From positions 62,001-126,000 of IMG/VR virus record IMGVR_UViG_3300035158_000183: DNA of 64,000 nt, one strand, 5' to 3'. Within the stretch, counting starts at the first letter, position 1; every line of letters starts with the position of its first letter. Shown piece after piece: positions 18,120 to 64,000 of this stretch. Source of the stretch: a virus. A model generated the notes under the pieces. The model was not told the origin of the DNA. It worked only from the letters and a program-made list of their open reading frames with translations, and did no database searches. The position numbers and the translations under genes are program-made.

Positions 18120-19253
18120 CTATCTCGAAATCCACTTACTCCAGATCTCTATGTTGTTCTTAATACGTGGGATTTCGGCAGTCTCGTAGGCCTTCTCGGC
18201 CATCTGGATAGCCTTCTCATACTGCTTCAGATGGTTGTATACCATCGACAGCAGGTCATAGCGATCTACCATGTATATTCGCGGGGTTACGAACAGCCTG
18301 CACTTGGGCATCTCCATCTTGACACAATGCTCCAGCCACACCTGAGCCTCGTGATAGTGCTGCTGTTTGTAAGCCAAGTCAGCCATGTAGTAGTAGGCCT
18401 CTGCCATGGGTGGGAACTCTTCTATGGCCTTCACGAACTGCTCCCGGGCATTGTCTCGCTCGCCCCGATAACTGTAGCAAGTACCCATATTAACCCTTGC
18501 ATGCCAGCGCTCCTCATCCCACTTACTGATGAGCAGATACTCCTTGTAGGCTTCTATAGCAAGGGTCCACTTGGCGTTCTCCTTATAAGCATTCCCTAGA
18601 TAAAACCAGGAGCGTGAGTCCTGAGGATTTTGCTTTACGGCATCCTCGAACCCCTCTATCGTTGCCTTGGAGCGCTGCACATCACGAGCTTTCTTCGCAG
18701 ATTTGTTCTGATGCTGCTTATTATGCTCTACCACAAACTGCTCTGATACGTACTTCTTATGCTTCTGTAGCATCGGCGCATTGTGCTGAGAGTTCTGATA
18801 GCGTATGTTGGGCCCTAGAAGCCGAGCTTGTGTATACATAAGCTGTGGTATACCATACTGGTCTGGCTCGAAGTGTATCCATACTTCCACACCATCCTGA
18901 TTCTTACTCTCAGCCTCCTCAATAACTTTGTGTATATTCTCAGGATTCTTCACAGTCTCATGGCCATCAAGTATGAGCCTCCAGGTTCCTGGCTTGCAGA
19001 CAGCAAGCACCCTGTTCCTGGCTTTCGAGAAACCCCAGTCACCCTTATTCTTCCGAGGCCCCTGCTTGGCTAGCTCCTCATCCAGGTAGTGAGGAATTAC
19101 CCGGTCGGCTAACCTCTCAGCTATCTCACGAGTTCCGTCATTGGAGGCCTCGTCCACACCAATGATTACTTCGTCCACATGGTCCCTGACAGACTGTATT
19201 GTCTGCTCGAGGGTGTCCGCCTCATCCTTTACGATCATCGCTAGTGATAACAT
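18120..19253 (-). CDS. Family 2 glycosyltransferase with C-terminal TPR repeats
   Basis: Residues 1-10 (M-L-S-L-A-M-I-V-K-D-E) are the N-terminal nucleotide-binding strand of GT-A family 2 enzymes. D-E-V-I-I-G-V-D-E-A-S-N-D-G-T near residues 27-41 is the conserved acidic loop, and L-I-L-D-G-H-E near residue 97 occupies the DxD metal-binding position. Residues about 205-375 form TPR-like helical pairs (W-F-Y-L-G-N-A-Y, Y-Y-Y-M-A-D-L-A). GT2-plus-TPR is the layout of protein glycosyltransferases such as SunS. The gene starts two bases after the hydrolase gene stop. It may glycosylate a virion protein using a host nucleotide sugar; the TPR would recruit the acceptor. Fold confident, acceptor unknown. 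Confidence 0.82.
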   Translation of the reverse strand: MLSLAMIVKDEADTLEQTIQSVRDHVDEVIIGVDEASNDGTREIAERLADRVIPHYLDEELAKQGPRKNKGDWGFSKARNRVLAVCKPGTWRLILDGHETVKNPENIHKVIEEAESKNQDGVEVWIHFEPDQYGIPQLMYTQARLLGPNIRYQNSQHNAPMLQKHKKYVSEQFVVEHNKQHQNKSAKKARDVQRSKATIEGFEDAVKQNPQDSRSWFYLGNAYKENAKWTLAIEAYKEYLLISKWDEERWHARVNMGTCYSYRGERDNAREQFVKAIEEFPPMAEAYYYMADLAYKQQHYHEAQVWLEHCVKMEMPKCRLFVTPRIYMVDRYDLLSMVYNHLKQYEKAIQMAEKAYETAEIPRIKNNIEIWSKWISR

Positions 19254-21745: not shown

Positions 21746-25282
<3,537 letters not shown>

Positions 25283-36758: not shown

Positions 36759-38009
36759 CTAAAAAGTAATGAACTGTATTCCGCGATACCGCCCTGAGGT
36801 TTCGAGGATTATCCTCTCGTTGTAAAGCGGCGAAAGCCATTCCCCAAATGTCAGTGTACGCACGCTGCCCTCACCGGTAGGAGAGGCCTTGTGCAGATAA
36901 ATCTCCTCGAACTTGTTGGGCCTATTGCGCCCAATCCTATATGCCAGAGGAGCTGCCTCCAGCATAGAATCTATTATGTTAACCATCTCGATATCTTCAC
37001 CGATGTCCAGGGCATTAATGACTTCTTCTACTGCCTCCCGCATCGCAACATAACCGAAGGCAATCTCCTCAGCCTTAGCACGAGGTGACCAGTTTACGGC
37101 TGCCACTAGCTCTAACCCTAGAGGTCTGGGAGCAGATATGAATGGCCGTATGCCATAGCCTGTTACTAGATTGACAGATTGTGTGACTTCACGTATCAGG
37201 TCAGGACTTACTGTCGGCGTGATACCCTTGATATATAACGCGAATGTACCTGGCCCTTGCTCGGCGTTTACCAGATAGACATCAGCCACACCTGGTATGG
37301 CTAGTGCTGCGAGCCTAATCGAAGCCATAACTGCCATTGTCCGAGAGCGGAACACATTAGATAGGCGGTATCGATATGATTCATCCTCTTCACGATCTAC
37401 ACCATTATCAATTGCGTATCTGTTTGTACACTTCAGCCGCTGAGTGTCCGAGAGCGTATAGGAATTAAAGCCATGTACATTCAATACGTTACGAGGCACA
37501 GAAGAATCTATACCCTCAAGGGCGGACCTGACAGGTGCATAAACAAAGCTGGTGTCGGCTTCGCCTGTAACCGGCACGAGGGTCGAATAGCTGACAACAG
37601 GCTGCTCGGCAATTCCTGGAGTAACAATCTCGCCAGAAAATGATTCCGTGGAGACGCTTGTGCCAGCTGGTATAGAGATGGCTGCGCCATTATTGATATC
37701 GCCAAATGTTCCCGAATCTACGTAGAACATCAAGTTGTCATCTTCAGCTATGGCGTGGGCAGCTTCCAGCCTAGGGACGTTCAACATATCGCCAAAGAAG
37801 TCTAGGAAGCGTCCCTCTGCGTAGTGGATGTAGGGCTGTAGTAGATTCTCGTCAAACAGTCTCTGCTGTTTCGCCTGCTCCCGAGCTGTGGTAGACAAGA
37901 AGAAGCGTGCCTTGCCGCCAGGTGCCATTTGATTAATGTTGGTGTCGCGGTCTAGGCGTTCCAGCGATTCGTTGATAATTTCTCTCTCTTCTCTAGGGAA
38001 AAATGGCAT
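36759..38009 (-). CDS. Baseplate J-like protein
   Basis: At 416 residues it is near the usual J/gp47 length range. It has G-R-F-L-D-F-F-G near residue 70, where J-like proteins have a G-x-x-L-D-x-x-G motif, an I-P-A-G-T-x-V strand near residue 115, E-S-Y-R-Y-R-L near residue 215, and I-P-G-V-A-D-V-Y-L near residue 250. This is the standard order of baseplate J proteins from Mu, P2 and XkdT-type tails. J forms the wedge ring of contractile baseplates. It follows the gp25-like gene, the classical gp25-J pair. Confidence 0.85.
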   Translation of the reverse strand: MPFFPREEREIINESLERLDRDTNINQMAPGGKARFFLSTTAREQAKQQRLFDENLLQPYIHYAEGRFLDFFGDMLNVPRLEAAHAIAEDDNLMFYVDSGTFGDINNGAAISIPAGTSVSTESFSGEIVTPGIAEQPVVSYSTLVPVTGEADTSFVYAPVRSALEGIDSSVPRNVLNVHGFNSYTLSDTQRLKCTNRYAIDNGVDREEDESYRYRLSNVFRSRTMAVMASIRLAALAIPGVADVYLVNAEQGPGTFALYIKGITPTVSPDLIREVTQSVNLVTGYGIRPFISAPRPLGLELVAAVNWSPRAKAEEIAFGYVAMREAVEEVINALDIGEDIEMVNIIDSMLEAAPLAYRIGRNRPNKFEEIYLHKASPTGEGSVRTLTFGEWLSPLYNERIILETSGRYRGIQFITF

Positions 38010-45734: not shown

Positions 45735-48700
45735 CTACAACCTCTCATGGATTCTATTAGCCAGACGTTGCGGACTCAAGGCCTCTCGGTTGTCTACTGT
45801 TCTAATCCGGGTCCGACCGCCTAAGTCTCCAGCTTGTCTCATGAAATTCTGGCCCATCTGGTTCGCATCAGGTGTAGGTATTCTAATACTAGCACGAGAT
45901 GCGGATCTCATTCCACTCATGTCGTACACCTTAGGCGACTGCATTATCCTTGCTGTTGGAGGACTCATACCCTGTCCGGCTGCAGGACCAATATAGTCGT
46001 CCCCCAGGTTCCTGCCACCAGCTGCTCCCTCTTTCGGTGCCGACAGCGAACCAGATACTGATGGGGCTGCTAGCATTACGCCGGCCGCCAGACTAGCCCC
46101 TATCATCAGTGGGGCTCTGGCATGGCGCAAAGCCCCGAAGACAGCTGAAGTTCTAGTCTTAGCCATACGCAAGGCCCTGGTGGCATTTTCGGTGAGGCTC
46201 GGCTGCCCGTAAGCTTGTCGCTGCATGACTGCTTGTGCCACATCGAGGGAACCCGTACGACGCTTGTAATACATGTGTATTAAGGTATTTAAGTCATCTG
46301 GCACGCGGCCTTTGGCCAACTGTGCTTCCTTGACAGCAACGTCTACATCTGCACCAACTGCACGTACACCACTTATGATGTCTTCCGCAGCCTGTCTGGG
46401 GCTGAATTTCAGTGTTCTAGCACCCTCCCGACCGGTCACAGGATTAGTGATGCTACCAGATACTACACGATCTTCTTCGCCCATTATTCTCTTCAGCACA
46501 CTCTCCATCCCACTTGCATCTTGTTGCTGTATAGCATGGGCAATATCTTGATACATCTGACTCTGGTAGGCTCCGTGCTTACCACCAATAGCGGCTTCTT
46601 CTAGGTGCCAGAACAATTCAGCCATTGGACGATACTTCTCTGGAGCTGCGTACTGTAGGCCCAGTTTGGCTTTCTGTAAAGCTATATTAACCTGCGGGGT
46701 GGCTATTTTGGCTGTTGTGAGGTTCGCAGCTCCCTGCATCATAGCCTCACGTCTTGTCATTTCAGCGATACCCTTAACCCCTCCAAGCTTTGCTGCCTGG
46801 CTCTTGATCAGATCTTTCATAGCATAATGATTGAATAAATAGCTGGTATATCCTTCAGCAATTTCACTATCCATCTTGCGGGTTAGTCTGTTAAAGGTGT
46901 CTCTGTCTGATATAGCAGCTATAGAAAACGCATCTTTATCAAAATCACCTTTCATACCTACCATGGGAGATATATCTACTTGGCGTTGTACGCCACCAAT
47001 AGTCAATGACCCCTCTTGGTATGGTGAGGCTATTAGCTCGTCTGCTAGATTCCGGTCTACCTGAAACCGCGCGAATTGGAAACTCTCTGGTCCGGTGAGA
47101 GGGTGGCGCCAGACACCCGCAACCACAGCCTGATTCTTCTTTAGCAACATTTCTTTCTGGAACTTCAATAGCTCTCGCTGGTCATCCGTCTTGGCATTCT
47201 CCAGCAACTCATCCATCATTCTCTGGGCGGTGCGTGGGGAGACACGGAAAGCTCCAGCAGCTTGGGCTGTCTGTTCCGCAGTTTGTCGGACACCTGTCAG
47301 ATACCTGGTTCCCAACAGCTTGCCTTTAGCAATGGTTGCCTGGCGCTCTGTGGCAGCTACAACCTTGCTCCGTAATGAGGCAGCTGCGGCCTCAATTTCT
47401 TCTGTAGCCGCCCCTCTAGCTAGCTGATAGCGTAAATTTTGTAGTTCCTGCATAACATCCGTATCAATCATACGGCCGCCCTGAGCACGGAACTGCTGCA
47501 TAAGCTCTGGGGCTTCCTCAAAACCTGGCACATATAGCCGCTTGGCGCCCCCTAAAGCTTCTATATCCTGGCCTAACGGGACATACCTTCCTTGTGCTCT
47601 CCGCAAGTCTTCTTGGGTCATCTGTGCCAGTGTTTTCTCAGCAGTAGGTATATCCCCAGTCCATCGTTCGACAAGGCCTTCTTCACCCAGCACAGTGCCC
47701 ATCATACGATTAGCTGCTACTAAGTCAGTTTTGCCATAGGCTCGAGTACCCAGCTCTGCTGCCAATGCTTGGCCCTCCGCACCCTTCATGGCTAACAAGC
47801 GCATGCCAGCTTGCTCAATTGTAGCCATGCCACCTGCACCACCTTCAGCTGCTAGATCACCCAGACGACCCTTCATAAGCCCCATCACACCAGTGGAGTC
47901 TGCCACTGCCTGACCAATGCCGAGGCTATCTGCTACACCCTGATCCATCAGACCGAAAGTGAGGCCCATCTCTTCAGCAGTAAACCCAAAACGCTTGGCT
48001 GTTCTTGTCATACGCCGCTGCAGATCGAATACAGCACGGTCAGCAGTTGCTGCGTTCAGGCTACTGACTCCCATGATACGAGCTGGATCCTCTAAAAAGC
48101 TTCGGGCCACAGCCTCGCTTCCAGCCAGTGTGCCGGCATCTATCTTGCCAGCGGTTATGAGAGACATAGCCTCCATCTGCTGAGTCAGCTGGGCCATTAG
48201 GTTACGTTGGACCAGCTTGCCAGACCACATAGCCTGCACGGCCTGTCCGCCTATCTCTGTAGGTGCGCCGGCTACCCCGAGCATGCCAGCTAATTCTTTC
48301 TGCGTTTGAGCCCTACCCATGAACTTAATATCTTCACTGAAAAATTTCCACCACTTATCTCGACCTATGCGGTGCCGTTCGCGTACGTACACCGTAGCGG
48401 CATGATCGTCCGTAAGTTCGGCTGCAATAACTTCAGCAGCTTCCCCGCCTGCTTGAGCCTCTGCCCATAGCGGTGCGCCAGTGTGGCGCTCAACTCCTAT
48501 AAACCCTTCTTGTCCTATAGGAGTAGCGAATTCTCGCACTTCTCCGATGCGAGCACCCTTAAGCTTAGCCAGTATCTCTTCATTCACCCTGAGGCCTTCT
48601 CGTAGGTTTATCTTCTTTGCTACAACACGCTCATACTCCATCATATCGGCTGCTTGCTCTGCGATAAGTCCCTCTTCCAGGAACATTCTCTTGTTCAGTT

Positions 48701-50228
48701 CCTCAGCGAGAAAGTTTCCTTCGACCATTCCTCTCTGTAGGGCCTGCTTCTCGTTAGCAGTCTTGGCATAGAACGTTACTAGCTGAGGAGCAGTATAAGC
48801 CTCGGCTGCCGTAGCCGCATGTCCACCGTGTACCATTCTCTGATAGGCTGGGCCCTGAATCTTGCGTTCTAACCGGCTATAGTATTCGCCAAAAGTACCA
48901 GCGAATGGTGTGGCCTTAGCCTTAGCTTCCGCCGTGACACCCCACTCTCCCCTAATAAACTGGAAAGGTTGTTGTTCAGTACCCACTAAACGGCCTAGTG
49001 GGCCATATAGCTCTTCGGCAGGTGTCATACGCTCGTGCACGCCTGCCATAAATACACCTCTGGCTACGGGATCCGGACCGCCAACAGGCCACAACTGCCG
49101 TCCGCCTGCTGCAGCTTCCTCCACCATCTTTCCGCGTAATTCTTCAGTCATTTTGCCTGCATACACTGCTTGCTGGCCCAACATCCGTGCTCTAGCCCTG
49201 CCTCCAGAAGGCAGCACTGCTTCAGGCAAGGACCAAACTGCCATTGCTCTGTGTGATGCGTCCCGGTCATGAAGAGCTTCTATGATTCGATGATTTATCT
49301 CAATTACTGTGTTCTTAACACCTGTAGTGGTCTTCTGTCTGGATATGGCGTTGGCCAGAAGATCTACGTACTCATCAGCATAGTTGCGTATAGCTCCTGT
49401 CTCACCATAGGCACGCCGGGTTCTATATCTGGCTGTGAGTCGCTGTCCGCCATAGGCCATCCCTGCACCCTCTAGCGGAATATTTATAGCTTCTCTTCCG
49501 ATAGCCGCTCTTAGTACAGGAACTTCAGCAAACTTACCGCCACCTAGTGCTTCCCGGACCATCTCCACACCACGCCAGTCTATCTCCCCGCCAGCTTTGC
49601 GCATAGCTTCATCCAGCCTCTCCTGTATGGCCACGGCTTTGGGAAAGTCTTGAATAGGTTTTACTGGTCTGTCAATGGTCGTGCCCACAAACTCGCCCGG
49701 TGATATGGCTGCCTCCGCTCTGGCCGCCCATGGAGTGCGTCCGCCTAGAGTGGGATCTGCTGTTAGAGACCGCAGGCGCCCAGCAAAGACATCAGCATCA
49801 CCCAGCAAATCCTGAATCTCAGCAGCAGCTTGCCCATAAGCCTTCTTGTATGTAGACTGGCCCATGATATTTTGGAAAGCTGTGTAAGCTTCCTCTTCAC
49901 TATAACGGCCACCTGCCATAATAGCTTCATAGGCGGCAGCGGCTATATCATGCTGCAGCACCTTGCCGCCTGGGCCAATCTTGGATAGCTCGTGAATAGC
50001 CAGATCTGATGTGTCCACCGTGCTCTTGATGGTGCGTTGCAGGTTGAACCCACCCATACCAGGTACTCTTGCCGCTACTTCGCCAGCAATATCTCTGGGC
50101 ATTGTAGTGAAAAGACCCCTGAGAGCGGGATGGGCCCGGTACAAACCTACGCCAGCACCTCCCAGCAGAGCTGCACCTGCAGTAAACCCCCAGAGTGGTG
50201 AACGTTCTTGATAATTGTTATCTGGCAT
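45735..50228 (-). CDS. Large virion-region protein with candidate two-barrel RNA polymerase active-site motif (1497 aa)
   Basis: It starts as TAATG on the tape-measure stop. Most of the chain is helical and Ala/Gly/Arg-rich, as in proteins carried inside tails. Residues 1083-1101 read V-D-I-S-P-M-V-G-M-K-G-D-F-D-K-D-A-F-S. The three Asp (1095, 1097, 1099) and preceding strand match the metal-binding loop of RNA polymerase beta'/Rpb1 (N-A-D-F-D-G-D), with the same strand-to-loop spacing. An R-H-P at 1041-1043 resembles the R-x-P before that barrel. R-I-G-R-D-K (Lys625) and D-I-K (Lys635) might be the beta-side lysines. YonO and crAss-phage gp66 are single-chain polymerases with a DxDxD motif, and gp66 is packaged in virions. 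An ordinary structural protein is the alternative. The C-terminus has one hydrophobic stretch (~1380-1400). Confidence 0.5.
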   Translation of the reverse strand: MPDNNYQERSPLWGFTAGAALLGGAGVGLYRAHPALRGLFTTMPRDIAGEVAARVPGMGGFNLQRTIKSTVDTSDLAIHELSKIGPGGKVLQHDIAAAAYEAIMAGGRYSEEEAYTAFQNIMGQSTYKKAYGQAAAEIQDLLGDADVFAGRLRSLTADPTLGGRTPWAARAEAAISPGEFVGTTIDRPVKPIQDFPKAVAIQERLDEAMRKAGGEIDWRGVEMVREALGGGKFAEVPVLRAAIGREAINIPLEGAGMAYGGQRLTARYRTRRAYGETGAIRNYADEYVDLLANAISRQKTTTGVKNTVIEINHRIIEALHDRDASHRAMAVWSLPEAVLPSGGRARARMLGQQAVYAGKMTEELRGKMVEEAAAGGRQLWPVGGPDPVARGVFMAGVHERMTPAEELYGPLGRLVGTEQQPFQFIRGEWGVTAEAKAKATPFAGTFGEYYSRLERKIQGPAYQRMVHGGHAATAAEAYTAPQLVTFYAKTANEKQALQRGMVEGNFLAEELNKRMFLEEGLIAEQAADMMEYERVVAKKINLREGLRVNEEILAKLKGARIGEVREFATPIGQEGFIGVERHTGAPLWAEAQAGGEAAEVIAAELTDDHAATVYVRERHRIGRDKWWKFFSEDIKFMGRAQTQKELAGMLGVAGAPTEIGGQAVQAMWSGKLVQRNLMAQLTQQMEAMSLITAGKIDAGTLAGSEAVARSFLEDPARIMGVSSLNAATADRAVFDLQRRMTRTAKRFGFTAEEMGLTFGLMDQGVADSLGIGQAVADSTGVMGLMKGRLGDLAAEGGAGGMATIEQAGMRLLAMKGAEGQALAAELGTRAYGKTDLVAANRMMGTVLGEEGLVERWTGDIPTAEKTLAQMTQEDLRRAQGRYVPLGQDIEALGGAKRLYVPGFEEAPELMQQFRAQGGRMIDTDVMQELQNLRYQLARGAATEEIEAAAASLRSKVVAATERQATIAKGKLLGTRYLTGVRQTAEQTAQAAGAFRVSPRTAQRMMDELLENAKTDDQRELLKFQKEMLLKKNQAVVAGVWRHPLTGPESFQFARFQVDRNLADELIASPYQEGSLTIGGVQRQVDISPMVGMKGDFDKDAFSIAAISDRDTFNRLTRKMDSEIAEGYTSYLFNHYAMKDLIKSQAAKLGGVKGIAEMTRREAMMQGAANLTTAKIATPQVNIALQKAKLGLQYAAPEKYRPMAELFWHLEEAAIGGKHGAYQSQMYQDIAHAIQQQDASGMESVLKRIMGEEDRVVSGSITNPVTGREGARTLKFSPRQAAEDIISGVRAVGADVDVAVKEAQLAKGRVPDDLNTLIHMYYKRRTGSLDVAQAVMQRQAYGQPSLTENATRALRMAKTRTSAVFGALRHARAPLMIGASLAAGVMLAAPSVSGSLSAPKEGAAGGRNLGDDYIGPAAGQGMSPPTARIMQSPKVYDMSGMRSASRASIRIPTPDANQMGQNFMRQAGDLGGRTRIRTVDNREALSPQRLANRIHERL

Positions 50229-53200
50229 TACCTAACTCCCATCCTCTTGTGGGTTTCTCGCACTAATTCATCTCTAGAGTCAACGATTTCAATATCATAC
50301 TCATCCGGTCCTTTAGTAGCCAGACCACACCGCATCACCCTGCTGCCACTACCTCCATGGACCTTGGCTAGTGTTTCAGCATTCAGCTTGTGTATCATAA
50401 CATCTTCTAGCTCAGCACGGGCTTGCATATCTCGTATAAGGTCTTCATTAATATACGGTTTTCTAGCTAGGGCTCGCTTCCGAGCACCCCAAAGATCGAA
50501 CTCATGATGGTCGAGTCCGGCCATCTGCACATACTGAAGCTTAACATCCTCCATATCAACTGATGGACTATTATGATAGATTCCAATTGGAGAACAATAC
50601 ATGTGCTGGTCTTCAACTTCAAAATCGAGCACCGTGCCTTCGTATTGGGATCTTTCAATGGTCTCTACTCGATAAGCTATAAAGTTTTCACCTACTATAG
50701 CTGAAAGAGAAGAGCTAAGTGACTCTACTGCATATTGGGCTTTACCATTTCTCTTCTTTGGCCCATGCAAACTAGCAGGAATACCTTGTGCCTCATATAG
50801 CCGTTTGGCCATATAGCATAATTGTCTATTAGCAAGAATAAGTCTCCCCCGCTCATCTTTAGAAGCATCCCCTGTATTAAGGCCATCTAATAAAGCTGCT
50901 TGGCTCTTCTGAGTAATATTCTCTAACCAAGAAGGAGAATATTTTTGATCACAATATCTACCTACCCAATGATTAATAAGCCAACCGAAAATACTATTTG
51001 CTACTACTAAATATGCGCTTTCACTCTTAGGCTTCTTCTTAAATCTGATGATGCTATCTAATCCAAATTTATCTTTAATGATTTTTTGAGCTAATTCTAG
51101 AATTGGGACTTCATCTATATGCGCTGTAAACTGTACTCCTCTCATTCTGTCTCCAACAGCCCATGTGTTCCCTCCTGCTAAGTAATAGCCAATTAACCAA
51201 CAAGTAGCTTCATCTAATTTGATAAATCTATTGATTGGTTTAATTCTTCCTGTCTTCGGACGTAAAGTATCATCAAGTATCAGAGTATTGTTTGGAAAAC
51301 AATTAAGCTTACCAATATCTATTACTGGATCTTCATCAGTATGTTTTAGTAAAGGAATAGGCAAGTACGTATTTGTTGTAAGTTTACCTATAGGCATCCA
51401 TTTAGCAGAATAAGATTCATAATGCTTTGTAGTACAGAAATTACATTTCCACATTGTTGTTGCATGCGTGCATACAGATTCAGGCTTTAAATTGTATTTG
51501 CATCGTTCAGTCTGAATCCCAAGCACAATATGATTCTCTGTTGCTGCCATACAATAAACACTGTTGTGATGAGTTTTAACAATTATAATATCTTCATTTG
51601 TCTGTCTCTCAAAAACTTGTTTCACTTGGTTTTCTCCTTGCAAGGTAGTTAAAGACTGATCTAATTTTACGTCACTTGCATGGAGAATTCTACCATCTGA
51701 TGTTAAGATATCTTGTTTCGGAGGAACACACCACCCTAGCCAGTCTGCGCCTGGCAAGGAGTGGGTTTTGAAGTATTCCTTAGCCTTAAGTTCGCGTATC
51801 CATTCATCAAATGGGATCTTTCCATCTGTCTCGGCTCGCCACTGCTCTTCCATCTCCGGTGTGGCCCCGAAGCCTTCGGTCTTGCGCATAAGAGCAGTCG
51901 TAATTAGTGTCTGCTCATCTTCCTTGGTGGCTATACCCGCCTGCTCCTTAGCTCTAGCAGCTCCTGCTTCCTGTTGTAACCACTTGGACATATACAGCCG
52001 TTGTTCATTCTCAGGTATCAGGGACAGTATCTCCTCGCGCTCTTCTGGTGATCTGGCACCTGTGAAAGCAGCAAAGAAGTCACGCTCTCTGCGCGGCAAG
52101 GCCCTCATAGCAGCCACTGGTGACCCGAAGACGTCCAGCCCGAACATGGTCCGCTGCTGGAGTTCCTGTTCCTCCCTCACATCTGACCACCTATTATTGT
52201 GGCGCGCAATACGTTCTGCACGCTCTGCCTTCACCCAATCCAGCATATCGAAATATTCATTAATGTCACGACGTTGGCGAATTTGTTCAGGAATTCTGTT
52301 GAAACCTATAGCGTGTAGTGCCATGTCGGCTGCTGGCTGTAGAAAGTTCTCCACAGGACGATTCCAAAATGCTGCCTGGGTGCCAATAGCCTCTGAAGCT
52401 ATGTACTCCTCAATGGCTGATCGTTGTCTGATAAGCTTGGATGCCGGAGACATAGGCGTTAGATACTCCATAGGGGTCTCAATACCATGCAAGATAGTCT
52501 CGCTCATGCGTCCAGCCAAACGCTCAGCAGGAGTAAATCTTAGCTGCTCGAATTCATCGCGTAGCTCCTTGGCCTCGGCATACTTCTGCTCCGCCAGGAC
52601 TTGCCCGTAGTCCTGGTCGCCCATCATGGCTACAGCCTTCATGCGGCTGCCGCGCTTGGTCACATCATAGCGGCGGGACTCCATCTGAGGAGCCTTGATA
52701 GTAATCTTCTGCCCCTCAAAGTGCTCAGTGGCGAAGTCCATTGCCTTCTGCATGTTGGTGATGGCGCCCACGCCCTGCAGCTCGATAACCATGTCGCCGA
52801 ATTCTGCTGCCTTGATACGACGTGGATCTAAGACCTCTGTGACGGTGATATCCCTGGTGCCTAGTAGCTCTGGTCTGAAGCGATACTCAGTTATCTTGCG
52901 GCGCTGCTTCCTGGACTTGACCTGTTCCTCAACAGTTCTGACTAGCTGCTTATCTTGATCCGATAGCCTACCAAAGTTTCGCTTAGCCTTCTGTAGCGTC
53001 CACTTATATTCGTCTGACCACATAGCCACATCGCCCAGGATTTTAAGGCGGTGGACGAGTGGATACTCCTCTGGGTGGACCCCAGCTACCTCAGGATGCA
53101 GAGCCTCGTACCCAGGACCCGGCAGTCTGATTTCAGCTTCCTTGATCTTCTGGAATGGATTGCCATACTTCAGATCTAAGAAGTAGTCTTCGGGCATCCA

Positions 53201-56200
53201 GGACGGCATGGTATTCTTTAGAGGGTTATAGGTCTCAAGATAGCTTCTGGTGCGCGGAATAAAACGTCTCACTGGCTCCGAGTTGTGCAGAAGTAAATAA
53301 TCCCCAACAAAACAATGAGACTCTTCAACTTCTATATCAAAAACTTTAACTCCCGTGGCAGGCTCGGCTTTTACATTTCTAACTGAGTAATATAAAAACC
53401 CATCCTGAGTAAACTGCCTACCATTAGAGTGTTCGAAACTTTCTTCCCAATCATTGTCGAGAATAATGCGGCAATATCTATCATGTTGGTCTTTGCTAAA
53501 CTTAAGATAGGATCTAAGAGTTGGCTTGCGTTGTTCGCCCTGCGGATATTGATTGTTAGGTTTGGGAATTTCCAAGTAGTCATCTGTCACTGTGGCAAAT
53601 ACACCAAGTCTTGCCAGGACAATCCAAAGATCTCGCACTAGCCGATTAGACTTACTAGTAAACCCTCCTGAGTATTTCTCTTTATTACTCCACCCATCGC
53701 CACCAATTAAACCAGCAATTAGCTTAGGCAATAAAGAGATGGGCAGATCAATAAGCCACGCCAATTTCTTAGTGCCGGCATCGGTGCCGAATTGCTTAAG
53801 CCATCGTGCTAAAGGAATATTGTGTAGCCTTAAAGCACAACTTCCTTGTTCGGGTTTCGTAGATATGTTATAGCTAAATCCAAATCTGGCTGTGTATATT
53901 TCGCCCAAAATATGAGCTATATCCAGCTCTTCTAAAGCAAGAGTAAAAGTAATATCTCCAGCCTGTGGGTCAGCACTACCCTCAGCAATCCACCACCCCA
54001 CAAACCAAGCAAGATCACGACCGAATACAACCTTACGTGGAGTTCTTTTGGGAGAGTGCTTTTTCCGGTATGAATTTAATGCTTCCTTCGCATATTGATC
54101 GGGAACGATTTCTCTTAAATCTTTCCGAGACATAAGGGGATTATTCTCTAGTGCTTCTATAGCTTTGGCAAAATGTTTAGTGGCCCTAGAATAGATATAG
54201 TCGTCTGTCACCGTTGCTGTAGAAGCAGCGTAGGGACCAAAATCTATAGATATATCTTCGGAAGTAATACCACCGGGCAGCGGCATTACCACAAAATCAT
54301 TTGGCTCAATAGCATCAGCTCGAACCCATTGCCACGCAATCTCTGTGTCACACAATCCACAAACACTGCAATGTTTCTTAGGGCTATGTGGGGTGCATGG
54401 TCTGGCATGACTATCTCTACAGGGAATACGTTTATAAACAGCAACAGGGTGATTCCCCGTAACTCTTACCGTCTTATTACCAACCCTGGTATTGATAGTA
54501 ATCATCTGTTCGTCGGAGCCGCAGATCCTTTCAAAAACATTAAGTACTTGCTTTGTCTTCATACGGTGATCATAAACAGCATCACCTACTTGAATATCCT
54601 CGATGTTCTTCAGGCCATCCGGAGTAAAAACCTTCTCTCCGGCAGGTAAGCATGCACCTAGCGCACCACCCACATTGAGATGGCTCCATAGCCAGTACTC
54701 AGATCCGGTCTCCTTGCCCATGACGCCTAATGTTTGTAGGTTCTGGAAGAACTCCTCCCTACCCGTCATGGCATGCTCAATAGCTCCCTCAGCAAAACCG
54801 ACAAGACCTACAGCCTCACGTCTGCGGTACATAAGCTCGTTGAACAACTGGCTACCTTCTTCGGGTACTACCGGCGCTCCAGGACGCAAGCCCCCAAGCT
54901 CATACGCTGGCTCGGTTTCCTTGCGGACATCCGGTCGATGTACATACTCTCCCTCATCTAGCATCCATTCCTCAGGACGTATTAGCTTGCGAGGCTTGAG
55001 AGCTTTGCCCACTGTTGCCGCAACAAGAGGACCGAAAAATGGTACATCTTTACCGTAAGTGCCTGCAAGCGGGGCCGGCCGCTCATACTGATATTTTCTT
55101 TCGTAGTGGTACTTCCACTCGTCTGACCCGAACAGGGCCTTTAATGGATGGAGCCATGGGTCGTGTTCCCACTTCTCTTCTTCAGTACCATACATGCCCT
55201 TCTGGAATGCTCTGGTCCGCAACCTCTCCATGAAGTGAGGGCGGTAGTATTCTATGCGGCCACCCTCGTAAGGAGTAGAATTGTGCACCAAGAATGTACC
55301 CGCCTGGAATAGATGATCCGGGTGATCTACTTCGAAGTCATAGACAATATCATCATAATCTTCTGTTTCTATCGCGCAAATAACAGAGTAAAGTTTAGAA
55401 TTACAAACTTTATAGAAATATGGAATCCTACCTGGAGTCCACTTGATCCTATGCCTCCCCCTATAATCATTCTTCTCAAACTTACAAAGATAAGGATATT
55501 CTCCTAAGTTTAACAATATAGAGAATATTGCATCAAGAAGCCCTCGTCTACAAGAAGAGATAACACAGGTTCTTTGATCTAGATGTCCATCTCCACGCCG
55601 ATAACCCTCAACCAATTGTTCTTTAAAAGCTTTTGGTGCAGACATAAATACTTGTGGAAATATTTTGTCTTGTTGGCGCTCGCTATTATAAAACAGCTCA
55701 AAGAACATTCTGGCAAGCAAAGAACTGCAGATCCTTACGACCCAACAGCCTTCGTTTGTTTTCTTCTTGCCTTTCTTAAACCTTACTGTTGGTGTAATGC
55801 CAAATTCTTTCTCAGATATAGAGACAACATCATCAACTATCCATCGTTCTGATTTAGCGTGAACAGTTTCTATCATGTGGGGAATATCATTCTTATAAGA
55901 AATATTGCCTTCTGCTAAGAAGTAACCGAATAGACGGCCTAGTTCTGGTGTTAATGTTACAACTCTAGGGATTGAAGCCCCCCTAGATCTTTGAACCTTG
56001 CCACTATACCAATTCTTCTGTGCGGGGAGAAGAATATCTTCACAGATTAAGAAAAGACCAGTCTTTATCAAATCTTCAGAAATAAGCTCAGTTGATGTTT
56101 CCTTTAGCTGTGGGATAGGTATCTCTACTCTGTCGTTTACTCGAAGCCCTTTCGCTTCTACTTCAACAATTTCTTCTCCTCTAAGAACCGGAACCTTATG

Positions 56201-58060
56201 ATTCCCTGTTAGCTTGGTCTCTGTAATCCAACTAGCTCTTGTTTTGAATTTGATAATATTACCAGAAAACTTTCTTGTAAATATATTGACGACCTTAGCC
56301 TCTTCGCCATCTCTGCCTATTAAGACATCACCAATACGAACTTCATGGGCTTCCTTAAATGTTCCGGCATAACACATTGGAATCATTGAGGAATTCGCCA
56401 AGCACCTCCCGAACTCCCACCACCTACCCTTCCTGATGGGCACTTCCTTCTCACCAGAGTAAATTGCCTCCAGCTCCTCGGAAGTCTCAGTAGTACCCAG
56501 CAAGTTGAGTCCAGGTATAGCCGCCATTAGATTGCCAGAAAGCAGTCCCATGCCAGTGCTAAGGGCGCCCCAGGCTGCCACTCCACCTAGAAACCCTAGA
56601 GCCATTGGGTGCCTAGCCTTAGCAAGCAATCTACCCCCGGGTAGTTTCTTGACAGCTTTACCCAGCTTAGACTCCCATACGGCGTCAGCTATCTTATCAA
56701 CATGTTCTTTACGCAGATCTTCAGTAATATCTGCGAAGGCACGCTCGGGGCCTGCTGCGTGGCGTTGCCGAACTGCTGCACCCAATAAACCACCATAGCC
56801 GGCCAGGCCCCCCGCCAGCATACCTACGCCACCGAACCCTACGGCAGTCTTAAGGGATACCAGCCCAGGTGTCACAGCTTCCTGTTCTCGCAATGATTCT
56901 GATAGACCCAAAGCTTCTGATGCTCTTGCCCGTGCAAGGTTCAAATCAGTAAACATAGAAGCGACGCCGTAGAATAGACCTTCATCAAATCTAGGGGCTA
57001 GGGCCGTATAGAGACCGGTTGCCGCCCCAATAGCCAGACCAGCAGGTCTAAACATTTGTCCTGGTCGCTTGAACAGAAAGGCGCCAGCTGCGGCACCACC
57101 GGCAGTACCAAGGGCTGGTGCCCAAGCACTACCTTCCGCCCTCAAATAATCGTAATATTCTAGACCCTTATACGCAGCGGCCAGTCCTAAACCTTTCATC
57201 ATATACCGGCCGGCCATCTGCATAGCAGAGCCAGGCTGGACCTTCATGCTGCTGACCACAGGTATACGATTTAGGATAGGAAACACCTCGAACGGCTTCG
57301 AGAGTAGCATGTTAAGACGGCCCGCCGTAGTAGCCGCCTTGGCACGCATCAGCTTCCCAAGTATTTCACCCTTAGCCACTCGGCGCTGCATCTTCTCACT
57401 GAGCTGTATATCTTTACCAAAAATCCTAATCTTCTCGCGGAACTTGGCTCCCAATATCAGCTTGCGACGTCTCTCCGAAGGAGCCATCTCATCCAGCCAC
57501 TCCTTGTAGTCTATCGGGAGATCTAGCATCTCATATTCGCTTCTTAATAGAGCCTCATTGAGTGACTGATATTCTCCTAGTTTGGTCTTGCTAAGCCGTG
57601 CGTAGTAGTCGGCAATGGCAGAACCCTTCTGAGTGCCTGCAGTGATCTGCAGCCCCATCCCGATAGCTTTACTCTCGCGCGTTACATCACCAAATATCGC
57701 ACCGGTACGCTCCATCGTCAGACCGCCACCTGTACCAAAGATATTTCGGAGATATCCTCCGTACTGGCCTGCAGCCTTCAGCTGGGCCTCTGGCAGATCT
57801 ATTCTAGACCAGGTTTCTAGGGGCGATAGGAACTCAGAGATACGGAAGGTTCTGAGTATAGCTGCAGGGAAGGCTGTCTCGGCTGTTCTAATTCCCTGTA
57901 GGTAAACATCCCACAGTCTCCCGCCACCGTAAGGTATAAATCCAGACGCCATTATACCTGCACTAGCGAATCCCAGTTTAGCTAGCGGGGATAGTGTCTC
58001 GCTTGGTTGTGGGGGCTGTGGCCCGAAGGCTGTTATCGGATCAGCTGGCAATAATTTCAC
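50228..58060 (-). CDS. Tape-measure-like virion protein interrupted by three inteins (2610 aa precursor, 1391 aa spliced)
   Basis: The start is GTG at 58060 in a GTGA overlap with the preceding gene. Position directly after two chaperone-like genes, great length, helical character and several hydrophobic segments (residues ~290-550) support a tape measure. Three inteins occupy residues 553-927, 1137-1593 and 2111-2497, each starting with Cys, ending in His-Asn and followed by Ser. Removing them joins W-W-E-F-G-R to S-T-P-Y-E-G-G, G-A-L-G-A to S-E-P-V-R-R and D-W-L-G-W to S-P-S-V-D, giving 1391 residues. Inteins usually sit in conserved motifs, so these junctions should be functionally important. 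The tape measure sets tail length and helps DNA or proteins enter the cell. The family is inferred from position. Confidence 0.75.
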   Translation of the reverse strand: MKLLPADPITAFGPQPPQPSETLSPLAKLGFASAGIMASGFIPYGGGRLWDVYLQGIRTAETAFPAAILRTFRISEFLSPLETWSRIDLPEAQLKAAGQYGGYLRNIFGTGGGLTMERTGAIFGDVTRESKAIGMGLQITAGTQKGSAIADYYARLSKTKLGEYQSLNEALLRSEYEMLDLPIDYKEWLDEMAPSERRRKLILGAKFREKIRIFGKDIQLSEKMQRRVAKGEILGKLMRAKAATTAGRLNMLLSKPFEVFPILNRIPVVSSMKVQPGSAMQMAGRYMMKGLGLAAAYKGLEYYDYLRAEGSAWAPALGTAGGAAAGAFLFKRPGQMFRPAGLAIGAATGLYTALAPRFDEGLFYGVASMFTDLNLARARASEALGLSESLREQEAVTPGLVSLKTAVGFGGVGMLAGGLAGYGGLLGAAVRQRHAAGPERAFADITEDLRKEHVDKIADAVWESKLGKAVKKLPGGRLLAKARHPMALGFLGGVAAWGALSTGMGLLSGNLMAAIPGLNLLGTTETSEELEAIYSGEKEVPIRKGRWWEFGRCLANSSMIPMCYAGTFKEAHEVRIGDVLIGRDGEEAKVVNIFTRKFSGNIIKFKTRASWITETKLTGNHKVPVLRGEEIVEVEAKGLRVNDRVEIPIPQLKETSTELISEDLIKTGLFLICEDILLPAQKNWYSGKVQRSRGASIPRVVTLTPELGRLFGYFLAEGNISYKNDIPHMIETVHAKSERWIVDDVVSISEKEFGITPTVRFKKGKKKTNEGCWVVRICSSLLARMFFELFYNSERQQDKIFPQVFMSAPKAFKEQLVEGYRRGDGHLDQRTCVISSCRRGLLDAIFSILLNLGEYPYLCKFEKNDYRGRHRIKWTPGRIPYFYKVCNSKLYSVICAIETEDYDDIVYDFEVDHPDHLFQAGTFLVHNSTPYEGGRIEYYRPHFMERLRTRAFQKGMYGTEEEKWEHDPWLHPLKALFGSDEWKYHYERKYQYERPAPLAGTYGKDVPFFGPLVAATVGKALKPRKLIRPEEWMLDEGEYVHRPDVRKETEPAYELGGLRPGAPVVPEEGSQLFNELMYRRREAVGLVGFAEGAIEHAMTGREEFFQNLQTLGVMGKETGSEYWLWSHLNVGGALGACLPAGEKVFTPDGLKNIEDIQVGDAVYDHRMKTKQVLNVFERICGSDEQMITINTRVGNKTVRVTGNHPVAVYKRIPCRDSHARPCTPHSPKKHCSVCGLCDTEIAWQWVRADAIEPNDFVVMPLPGGITSEDISIDFGPYAASTATVTDDYIYSRATKHFAKAIEALENNPLMSRKDLREIVPDQYAKEALNSYRKKHSPKRTPRKVVFGRDLAWFVGWWIAEGSADPQAGDITFTLALEELDIAHILGEIYTARFGFSYNISTKPEQGSCALRLHNIPLARWLKQFGTDAGTKKLAWLIDLPISLLPKLIAGLIGGDGWSNKEKYSGGFTSKSNRLVRDLWIVLARLGVFATVTDDYLEIPKPNNQYPQGEQRKPTLRSYLKFSKDQHDRYCRIILDNDWEESFEHSNGRQFTQDGFLYYSVRNVKAEPATGVKVFDIEVEESHCFVGDYLLLHNSEPVRRFIPRTRSYLETYNPLKNTMPSWMPEDYFLDLKYGNPFQKIKEAEIRLPGPGYEALHPEVAGVHPEEYPLVHRLKILGDVAMWSDEYKWTLQKAKRNFGRLSDQDKQLVRTVEEQVKSRKQRRKITEYRFRPELLGTRDITVTEVLDPRRIKAAEFGDMVIELQGVGAITNMQKAMDFATEHFEGQKITIKAPQMESRRYDVTKRGSRMKAVAMMGDQDYGQVLAEQKYAEAKELRDEFEQLRFTPAERLAGRMSETILHGIETPMEYLTPMSPASKLIRQRSAIEEYIASEAIGTQAAFWNRPVENFLQPAADMALHAIGFNRIPEQIRQRRDINEYFDMLDWVKAERAERIARHNNRWSDVREEQELQQRTMFGLDVFGSPVAAMRALPRRERDFFAAFTGARSPEEREEILSLIPENEQRLYMSKWLQQEAGAARAKEQAGIATKEDEQTLITTALMRKTEGFGATPEMEEQWRAETDGKIPFDEWIRELKAKEYFKTHSLPGADWLGWCVPPKQDILTSDGRILHASDVKLDQSLTTLQGENQVKQVFERQTNEDIIIVKTHHNSVYCMAATENHIVLGIQTERCKYNLKPESVCTHATTMWKCNFCTTKHYESYSAKWMPIGKLTTNTYLPIPLLKHTDEDPVIDIGKLNCFPNNTLILDDTLRPKTGRIKPINRFIKLDEATCWLIGYYLAGGNTWAVGDRMRGVQFTAHIDEVPILELAQKIIKDKFGLDSIIRFKKKPKSESAYLVVANSIFGWLINHWVGRYCDQKYSPSWLENITQKSQAALLDGLNTGDASKDERGRLILANRQLCYMAKRLYEAQGIPASLHGPKKRNGKAQYAVESLSSSLSAIVGENFIAYRVETIERSQYEGTVLDFEVEDQHMYCSPIGIYHNSPSVDMEDVKLQYVQMAGLDHHEFDLWGARKRALARKPYINEDLIRDMQARAELEDVMIHKLNAETLAKVHGGSGSRVMRCGLATKGPDEYDIEIVDSRDELVRETHKRMGVR
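50570..51730 (-). mobile_element. Intein 3 in the tape-measure protein (387 aa, degenerate homing endonuclease)
   Basis: Starts at Cys2111 (C-V-P-P-K-Q-D-I-L), has a block B T-E-N-H, ends in G-I-Y-H-N before Ser2498. The endonuclease blocks are C-W-L-I-G-Y-Y-L-A-G-G and L-L-D-G-L-N-T-G-D-A; the first lacks the acidic residue expected before the last Gly, so cutting is probably lost while splicing residues remain. A four-Cys cluster (E-R-C, S-V-C, K-C-N-F-C) follows block B. The DNA is visibly more A/T-rich than the flanking exteins. Confidence 0.85.
53282..54652 (-). mobile_element. Intein 2 in the tape-measure protein (457 aa, LAGLIDADG endonuclease)
   Basis: Starts at Cys1137 (C-L-P-A-G-E-K-V-F-T), has block B V-T-G-N-H, endonuclease blocks F-V-G-W-W-I-A-E-G and L-I-A-G-L-I-G-G-D-G with both acidic residues present, and ends F-V-G-D-Y-L-L-L-H-N before Ser1594. 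A Cys/His-rich insertion (C-R-D-S-H, C-T-P-H, H-C-S-V-C-G-L-C) after block B may bind zinc. Splicing and homing both look intact. Confidence 0.9.
55280..56404 (-). mobile_element. Intein 1 in the tape-measure protein (375 aa, LAGLIDADG endonuclease)
   Basis: Starts at Cys553 (C-L-A-N-S-S-M-I-P), block A ends R-I-G-D-V-L-I, block B is L-T-G-N-H, endonuclease blocks are L-F-G-Y-F-L-A-E-G and L-V-E-G-Y-R-R-G-D-G, and the C-terminus is V-Y-D-F-E-V-D-H-P-D-H then F-L-V-H-N before Ser928. All standard splicing residues are present and both endonuclease acids are kept. It sits inside a W-W-E-F-G-R/S-T-P-Y-E-G-G motif of the extein. Confidence 0.9.
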
Positions 58061-62133: not shown

Positions 62134-64000
62134 TTAGCCTGATTTCGAAACCGAAACCGTTACTGTGACCTGACGCAGCTCGAAAGCTGGGATCAGAGTC
62201 AGATTGATATCAGCTTTACCCTGAACCTCCATCTGAGGTGTCTGGATAATCTCGAATGGACGGTAGTCCTGGAGGTAACGAGCTGTCTTGGCTGCCAAGA
62301 GAACCTTCTCTACAGATGTCTGCATAGAGGCCCTTGTGGCATCCGACATACCCTCGCCCAGGAACGGATCGACTGCAGCACGTACTCCGTCAATGACGGC
62401 CTTCACAATACGTACTGTGGACAGGCGGTTCCAGTCACTGGTTGGCAGGGCGGCTGTGGGAGCATCTGCTACTACCAGACCAGTTGTCTTCTGGCGGAGG
62501 CAGGTGTACCCGGCACCGGCCATATCATCCAGAGCCTGGAGACCGAGACGGAAGATCAGTGTCGAGTTAGCTACCCGCTTGTTTGTGGGTGCGCTAGCTG
62601 GCGACATGTTGATATAGAACCCGCCGTATGAGGCTGCGAAGCTTGCCGGATAGGCGGTTGAGCTAAAACTGTTTCTGAGCAGTGGGTAATCCACCACAAC
62701 AGAGAAGTATTTACCGAGGTCTACCGGAATCTCGTTATCGTCTTCGATCTCGGCTCCGGAGTCCATGAATTTACCTTCTGTAGCGATGAAGCCACCGCCG
62801 AAGGCACCTGAGCGATGCTCATACTTGCCAGCCATAAACTTATTACCAACCAGACCACTGCCGTTATCATTGGCAGAGGCGATGTGATAGAGGCCAGACG
62901 CCGTATCGAGCGTCCATGTGGGCTCGCGGCCCACCCAACGTGCCTTGTCTACGAGGGAGTTGGAAGCTGGTGGCAGAACGCCAATAACACCCGTCGCATC
63001 CACGACATTGGTGGAGTACTCATACAGGAAGCGGCCCAGCTGATAAGCGAAGTTGACCTCGTGGAAGTCATCTCCAGTCAGAGTTGTGCCGTCAATCTTG
63101 GTTGTGGCTGTTGCAGAACCTGGAGCATCCGTCGGCCATATATCAGCCGAGGCAAATACGCCAGAACCGTCATTGAACCACCACCAGAAGTAGTACTCGC
63201 CCTCATACTCTTCTACGAAGAGCCTACCCAGAGCATCGACATCCTGACCTGGACGATAGCGGCCCTTGGTCGGGTATGTGTTGGCGGATGGAGACTCAGG
63301 CGTAATAGCACCCAGGTAGTGTCCCTGATTAACTACATTGTAGTCATCTAGGTAGACATCCATTGGTACGATCACGTCGAAGTCTGTTTGCTTGATGTTC
63401 TCGTATGCTACGTAAAGCTCCTCGTACATCTCCATTCTGGACATACCCAGGCCATCATCCCCAGCTGTGAAGGAAGTCCCTGCATATGTGCTCGGGTCCA
63501 CGTCTTCGAGGTTGATAAAGGCACTTGCTGAGCCAATGTCCGGTCCGCCACCAGAGTGACGATAACCGCTAACGATTACCTCGTATCTCTCGATGGGGCT
63601 GGTCTCGTCATTATCGAAAACAATGACGTCGTCCGTGTTGCGCTTCACTACCAGGCGGTCGGTACTGTCGTCGTAATACATAGCGTAGTTACCACCAGCA
63701 TCTGCGTCTTGCTCGACAGTCTCAATCTTGTAACCGCCTGCACCACCTGCAGAGTTACCTACACCCTCCAGAATGGCGGGCTTGGAACCAATACGGTACA
63801 TGGCGATTTCGTCTGCGCCTGCAGCTTTGACTTCCCACATACCGCGAAGTAGTGTACCGTCATTGCCAAACTCAGACTTAGCCTGTGTGGTAGAGGGGAC
63901 CAGGTATGTTAGGTGGCCTTGCCCCTTCCCCGATGTACCTACGATCATAGCCCTTGGGGCAACAGCTGTAGCCTCGGGGGCGAGGTTGCCGTCGTTCTTG
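62134..64000 (-). CDS. Tail sheath protein, 5' end outside the window
   Basis: The reading frame is open to the window edge (622 codons including the stop), and the visible start A-P-R-A-M-I-V-G-T-S-G-K-G is the internal strand that follows the short N-terminal arm of sheath proteins, so the true start is upstream. The C-terminus (L-S-T-V-R-I-V-K-A-V-I, V-D-P-F-L-G-E-G near the start of a helix, then Y-L-Q-D-Y, ending in V-T-V-T-V-S-V-S-K-S-G) matches the conserved sheath C-terminal domain that wraps the tube and links neighbouring subunits. The middle is a protruding beta domain. The sheath contracts to drive the tube into the cell. Identification of the family is confident. Confidence 0.85.
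   Translation of the reverse strand, partial: KNDGNLAPEATAVAPRAMIVGTSGKGQGHLTYLVPSTTQAKSEFGNDGTLLRGMWEVKAAGADEIAMYRIGSKPAILEGVGNSAGGAGGYKIETVEQDADAGGNYAMYYDDSTDRLVVKRNTDDVIVFDNDETSPIERYEVIVSGYRHSGGGPDIGSASAFINLEDVDPSTYAGTSFTAGDDGLGMSRMEMYEELYVAYENIKQTDFDVIVPMDVYLDDYNVVNQGHYLGAITPESPSANTYPTKGRYRPGQDVDALGRLFVEEYEGEYYFWWWFNDGSGVFASADIWPTDAPGSATATTKIDGTTLTGDDFHEVNFAYQLGRFLYEYSTNVVDATGVIGVLPPASNSLVDKARWVGREPTWTLDTASGLYHIASANDNGSGLVGNKFMAGKYEHRSGAFGGGFIATEGKFMDSGAEIEDDNEIPVDLGKYFSVVVDYPLLRNSFSSTAYPASFAASYGGFYINMSPASAPTNKRVANSTLIFRLGLQALDDMAGAGYTCLRQKTTGLVVADAPTAALPTSDWNRLSTVRIVKAVIDGVRAAVDPFLGEGMSDATRASMQTSVEKVLLAAKTARYLQDYRPFEIIQTPQMEVQGKADINLTLIPAFELRQVTVTVSVSKSG

Follow-up and report, generated by a model that had tools for sequence, protein, structure and literature searches.

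A tail protein with a predicted single-chain two-barrel RNA polymerase, encoded in the tail module of an intein-rich phage and in a diverse family of relatives

P0001 (45735..50228, minus strand) encodes a tail protein of 1497 aa with a predicted single-chain two-barrel RNA polymerase. The gene lies in a window of 64,000 nucleotides, the whole stretch of DNA that was analyzed, which covers positions 62001-126000 of a 174,034-base IMG/VR virus record; the open reading frame starts with ATG and is real. The assignment to a single-chain two-barrel RNA polymerase within a tail gene, with both halves apparently on one chain, is strongly supported by conservation within the family and by a structure prediction. 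The protein is most probably (at a probability of about 0.85) a virion-associated, DNA-dependent enzyme of this type that is built into a tail protein and is ejected to transcribe the first genes.

The tail module is organized, from right to left, into a sheath gene, genes for tube-like proteins, two small genes, P0002, P0001, P0003, and baseplate genes. It is the tail sheath gene (62134..63948, minus strand; PHROG 16991, E 3e-60) that places P0001 within the tail module. P0003 (39258..45728, minus strand; PHROG 20474, E 8e-39) is baseplate-hub/endolysin-like and occupies the position of gp147 in 0305phi8-36 and of ME3_37, and a Baseplate J/baseplate wedge protein is encoded at 36759..38009 (minus strand). 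The P0001 gene stands between tail tube/sheath and hub/baseplate genes, in an order identical to that in 0305phi8-36 and Acinetobacter phage ME3. One of the relatives, L051, is taken to be Bacillus phage 0305phi8-36. The likeness to this phage encompasses sheath, tube, chaperones, gp145 (homologous to P0002), gp146 at the position of P0001, and the hub gp147; gp146 has been assigned as the tape measure by its length (PMC2147016). An earlier note on this DNA had placed the presumed polymerase next to the tape measure; P0001 itself sits at the locus that the authors of the 0305phi8-36 study call tape measure. In contrast to P0001, gp146 carries neither DxDxD nor a polymerase region, and 0305phi8-36 harbors a separate YonO/QDE-1-like RNA polymerase, orf99, elsewhere in its genome (PMC2147016). 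Other proteins of the window include one of 1176 aa with seven collagen-repeat stretches (21746-25276), probably a tail fibre, and one in which TPR repeats are fused to a glycosyltransferase family 2 domain (18120-19253).

Searched as a single sequence, P0001 had no informative match in Pfam, PHROGs, PDB, or INPHARED; matches to RNA polymerases came only from family profiles and folds. Three close relatives were found first (38-53% identity in the best segment). The better conserved upstream neighbor, P0002, served as a lead to many more contigs, and iterative profile searches over the ORFs of the contigs with P0002 homologues define the P0001 family, which comprises 87 proteins, each encoded just downstream of a P0002 homologue. 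The relatives include the cultured Bacillus phage KLEB27-3 as well as phage-like contigs of Alicyclobacillus shizuokensis NBRC 103103 and Oceanobacillus profundus DSM 18246. KLEB27-3 gp034, the P0001 homologue of this phage, retains DYDGD and is annotated as ‘structural protein’. An annotation as RNA polymerase was found for no family member in the records examined; the supplementary survey of PMC10770324 may list some. The N-terminal part, residues 1-234 in P0001 (49527..50228, minus strand), varies in length across the family, whose members reach up to 3321 aa; the polymerase region begins after at least ~235 residues, and in L061 after more than 1000. In L054, L053, and other distant members, the same motifs are preceded by N-terminal extensions of great length.

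Of the 87 members, 78 align at the Asp triad; 71 of these sequences are non-redundant. In this triad-aligned set, each of the three Asp residues and P1043 reach 100% conservation, R1041 97%, K628 and K1217 91% each, and K635 87%. The sole invariant columns of a 62-sequence alignment, which has a mean column identity of ~12%, are P1043, D1095, D1097, and D1099. The predicted metal-binding motif D1095-F-D1097-K-D1099 is encoded at 46932..46946, the R-x-P motif R1041-H-P1043 at 47100..47108, the predicted catalytic lysines K628 and K635 at 48345..48347 and 48324..48326, respectively, and K1217, part of an LEE..I..KH motif, at 46578..46580 (all on the minus strand). The sequence elements on which the earlier note had built its proposal are all present in P0001, namely VDISPMVGMKGDFDKD with D1095/D1097/D1099, the strand VDISPMVGMKG, RHP at residues 1041-1043 with R1041 58 residues ahead of D1099, and the beta-side segment IGRDKWWKFFSEDIK. 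Of the two lysines that it had assigned to the beta side, K635 was retained, but K625 was rejected as a catalytic residue because it is not conserved (Glu in L004); the conserved pair is K628/K635. This pair reads K-h-F-...-K-G in many distant members, as in beta subunits.

A profile of the DxDxD region of the family was compared with all PDB sequences and matched mostly RNA polymerase beta'/Rpb1 chains. The top matches were 7s01 and 7s00, the beta' of the phage AR9 nvRNAP, with a best E of 3.9e-5 (7s01) and with R-x-P and DxDGD in register; the phiKZ nvRNAP (7ogp) was matched with an E of 0.004. Aligned by hhalign with six bacterial RpoC sequences, the family gave an E of 9e-7 and a probability of 91% over 184 columns, with a score of 57 compared with 21 for the reversed control. 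Masking of R-x-P and DxDxD lowered the score from 57 to 21, which indicates that most of the sequence signal to cellular beta' resides in the motifs. The Pfam family PF00623 (RNA_pol_Rpb1_2) matches 5 of 62 members with a best E of 1.3e-4; P0001 itself has no Pfam match. On a phage-module contig of the Alicyclobacillus shizuokensis genome, PF00623 has a match in a 2264-aa frame, which reaches the cut-off when neighboring in-frame matches are counted; the frame has the same length as the P0001 homologue of L039. Searched against the record's own DNA, neither PF00623 nor the RdRP family PF05183 found a match.

Residues 235-1347 (46188..49526, minus strand) were modeled by AlphaFold2 with 35 family sequences, yielding a pLDDT of 84.3 and a pTM of 0.83 and a fold that resembles RNA polymerase beta' and beta chains. 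The 50 PDB fold matches listed (best E 9.3e-5) are without exception large subunits of RNA polymerases, beta' (chains D, J) as well as beta/Rpb2 (chains C, B). Over the entire model, TM-scores against polymerases of known structure are low (0.1-0.2), which would be expected of a similarity confined to the core. Among the viral models that resemble the P0001 fold are proteins of ME3, one named ‘minor tail protein’, and numerous viral RNA polymerases; A0A172Q021 is probably ME3_36, judging from the protein length. The beta'-side double-psi barrel (DPBB-A) is predicted at about residues 973-1106 (46911..47312, minus strand), and the elements around D1095 follow the order of the beta' barrel: R-x-P strand, strands, short helix, DxDxD loop, strand, long helix. 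This long helix (residues 1109-1147; 46788..46904, minus strand) is a candidate bridge helix; a trigger loop was not recognized after the beta' barrel, where the long helix is predicted. A putative beta-side double-psi barrel (DPBB-B) encompasses about residues 563-645 (48294..48542, minus strand), a strand-rich region closed by two strands that contain K628 and K635; a profile of this candidate barrel region had no match among PDB sequences. The earlier note had named two tests for its idea, Asp conservation and a double-psi barrel fold. The three Asp residues proved invariant in the 78 aligned members, and the fold of the model resembles two-barrel RNA polymerases of known structure, beta' as well as beta chains; taken together, these results strongly support the polymerase part of the proposal.

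The C-terminal domain of P0001 (residues 1341-1493; 45750..46208, minus strand) is a probable tail anchor with a TM-like helix at residues 1370-1392 (46053-46121). The last ~150 residues are shared with relatives that have no polymerase region at the P0001 locus, among them 0305phi8-36 gp146, and the existence of such relatives indicates that the polymerase is not essential to the tail. In L020 (13764-14357; also in L021), the gene at the P0001 position encodes 198 aa, the C-terminal domain alone, and the polymerase is thus dispensable in some lineages. As the domain occurs without the polymerase in relatives, an arrangement of anchor plus cargo is suggested, in which the C-terminal ~150 aa hold the polymerase in the tail, and the idea of an obligatory ruler is weakened. 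In the Moorella phage MTATph1 (L062, 15300-22656), the matching C-terminal domain is encoded by a gene of its own, and a gene annotated as transposase lies between this gene and the large one before it.

P0002 (50228..58060, minus strand), the always-adjacent upstream partner, overlaps P0001 by 1 base and is conserved better than any other gene of the module. It encodes 2610 aa including three inteins and about 1390 aa without them. The inteins are inserted after RWWEFGR (55280..56404), after GGALGA (53282..54652), and after DWLGW (50570..51730), all on the minus strand, at highly conserved sites; they are of the Hint type, two with clear LAGLIDADG matches. Some close P0002 relatives, e.g. in L013, L015, and L019, are longer by blocks of similar size, and others have none. 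Outside the window, the same record (L235:7700-12673, L235:14194-16320, L236:2-3880) shows an intein in RecA/UvsX; its ribonucleotide reductase has intein-/endonuclease-like matches, and its DNA polymerase III alpha has a match to LAGLIDADG. The phage is intein-rich. A model of the P0002-family core (L002:7260-9977) is confident (pLDDT 81), and its comparison with PDB folds gave no significant match. Below the threshold, its fold matches are mainly to sigma factors of bacteria and to OB/S1 folds, which is regarded as a lead only. A role of P0002 as an RNA polymerase subunit was considered and rejected, the fold search having given no significant match and hhalign scores being at control level. 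Profile searches found no second polymerase in the record, and among the frames of at least 250 aa outside the window, only one further protein has D-x-D-G-D; it is of 298 aa and without R-x-P. Further observations on the same record concern a repetitive DNA segment with ~30 overlapping matches to GAYNNNGAYNNNGAY in 200 bases (G000:C1:7659-7859, minus strand) and a 1390-aa frame with RNase H-like and ABC1/protein-kinase-like matches (L238:3-4172, corresponding to G000 146003-150172, minus strand).

The closest precedent for P0001 is gp96 of the Thermus phage P23-45, described in PMC10770324 as a virion RNA polymerase of 5002 aa fused to the tail tape, with an N-terminal polymerase and a metallopeptidase. 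Both are single-chain two-barrel polymerases, in the case of P0001 a predicted one, within a long tail protein and share DxDxD and R-x-P; hhalign aligns the P0001 family and gp96 with the motifs in register at scores of 36-37 (controls 13-22). They differ in the type of phage, gp96 belonging to one with a long non-contractile tail and P0001 to a contractile-tail lineage, and in architecture, since the polymerase of P0001 is located between a variable N-terminal part and a C-terminal anchor. In tblastn searches, neither P0001 nor gp96 retrieved the phages of the other protein, and hhalign against P23-45 gp64 remained at the level of controls. The earlier note had cited crAss-like gp66 as precedent; it is indeed of a related kind, but P23-45 gp96 is nearer by profile score. 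The crAss-like enzyme, of phage phi14:2 (gp077 in the annotation of KC821624, gp66 in the literature), is likewise a virion polymerase with two barrels in a single chain and occurs alongside other giant proteins of the virion (PMC10770324), but has another gene neighborhood and belongs to another phage order (Crassvirales). A recognizable sequence relation to phi14:2 gp66 was not found by hhalign, with scores of 19.5-27.9 that are near the controls. The enzymes of phiKZ (7ogp) and AR9 (7s01) provide the best PDB sequence-profile matches, in which the motifs of the beta' barrel line up, but consist of several subunits from separate genes, whereas the halves of P0001 apparently reside in one chain. 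YonO of SPbeta is a single-chain polymerase of the two-barrel superfamily as well (PMC5467207); it is a prophage enzyme of ~100 kDa. In a survey of two-barrel polymerases of jumbo phages, ME3 is not among the carriers listed.

Packaging of P0001 into the virion is deduced from its gene position, the common tail domain, the annotation of KLEB27-3 gp034 as structural, and the precedent of gp96; on the same grounds, we infer that P0001 is catalytically active, is ejected, and transcribes early genes. According to this model, residues ~235-1340 would fold into an RNA polymerase core, in which the beta-like barrel would supply K628 and K635, and the beta'-like barrel would contribute R1041-x-P and the Mg2+-binding residues D1095/D1097/D1099, with a bridge-helix-like long helix next to it. 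The C-terminal ~150 aa, a TM-like helix and a small domain, would anchor the protein in the tail beside the hub. The N-terminal part, which is variable, may likewise have a role in the tail or the DNA path. P0001 would be taken up as the tail is assembled, leave the particle together with the DNA or before it, and then transcribe the first phage genes that enter the cell. A more far-reaching version, which is speculative, regards the C-terminal domain as a generic tail anchor and the polymerase as exchangeable cargo, gained, lost, or swapped as a whole within one tail gene; the enzyme would be active in its anchored position, at the tail tip or the membrane, and would thereby link early transcription to the entry of DNA. 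P0002 might be its partner for DNA binding or promoter recognition.

Several other explanations have to be weighed against a virion-associated polymerase. P0001 may be a helical tail protein of another kind in which DxDxD occurs by chance, a caution already voiced by the earlier note and a justified one, as 10.8% of P0001 shuffles contain DxDxD and the single sequence has no match in Pfam or PDB; R-x-P at 30-70 residues ahead of DxDxD occurs in 1.3% of the shuffles. Weak as it is alone, the motif is taken as real because the family conserves the triad, and together with the PDB profile matches and the fold match this conservation refutes the chance explanation, whose probability is practically negligible. 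It is also very unlikely that P0001 is a degenerate, inactive structural protein derived from a polymerase. Such decay would be in line with the residue ahead of the last Asp, which is frequently K, R, N, or A instead of Gly, and with the drift of the beta lysines in a few members (L068, L073), but at ~12% mean column identity only catalytic residues are invariant, the opposite of what decay would leave.

If P0001 is a true RNA polymerase, it might still be a late or non-virion enzyme whose place in the tail operon reflects the transcription unit only, without packaging, just as P23-45 gp64 and the orf99 RNA polymerase of 0305phi8-36 are encoded by non-tail genes. This is unlikely, considering that dozens of distant genomes keep the gene in a fixed place between tail genes, that its C-terminal domain is shared with the assigned tape measure gp146, that KLEB27-3 gp034 is annotated as structural, and that profile searches found no second copy in this record. 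A further explanation is a sub-case of the preferred one, and the confidences of the two overlap: P0001 may itself be the tape measure, fused to a polymerase, and may set the tail length in addition to transcribing. The exact synteny with gp146, assigned as tape measure by length, the precedent of P23-45 gp96, and an N-terminal length that varies in proteins of up to 3321 aa are consistent with such a ruler, which is considered possible, though doubtful. The polymerase follows the variable part in the chain, the reverse of the arrangement in gp96, P0002 is the long protein that is constant and could be the ruler instead, and the 198-aa gene of L020/L021, confined to the C-terminal domain, is too short for one; the latter form weakens the view that P0001 must be the tape measure.

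To our knowledge, the way in which long-tailed phages start transcription ahead of the takeover of the host has been worked out in just a few model phages. The P0001 proteins form a new and broad family of predicted tail-borne RNA polymerases, a kind that is already known, and a diverse contractile-tail phage lineage probably carries its RNA polymerase in a tail protein annotated as hypothetical or structural. Since the predicted core fold and every known catalytic residue of a relative of the cellular RNA polymerases are present, it is probable that long-tailed phages of a large group, most of it unstudied, package a polymerase of their own and deliver it along with the DNA. For studies of the evolution of two-barrel polymerases, the 71 non-redundant sequences are a considerable gain in diversity, and the cultured members of the family make packaging and activity directly testable.
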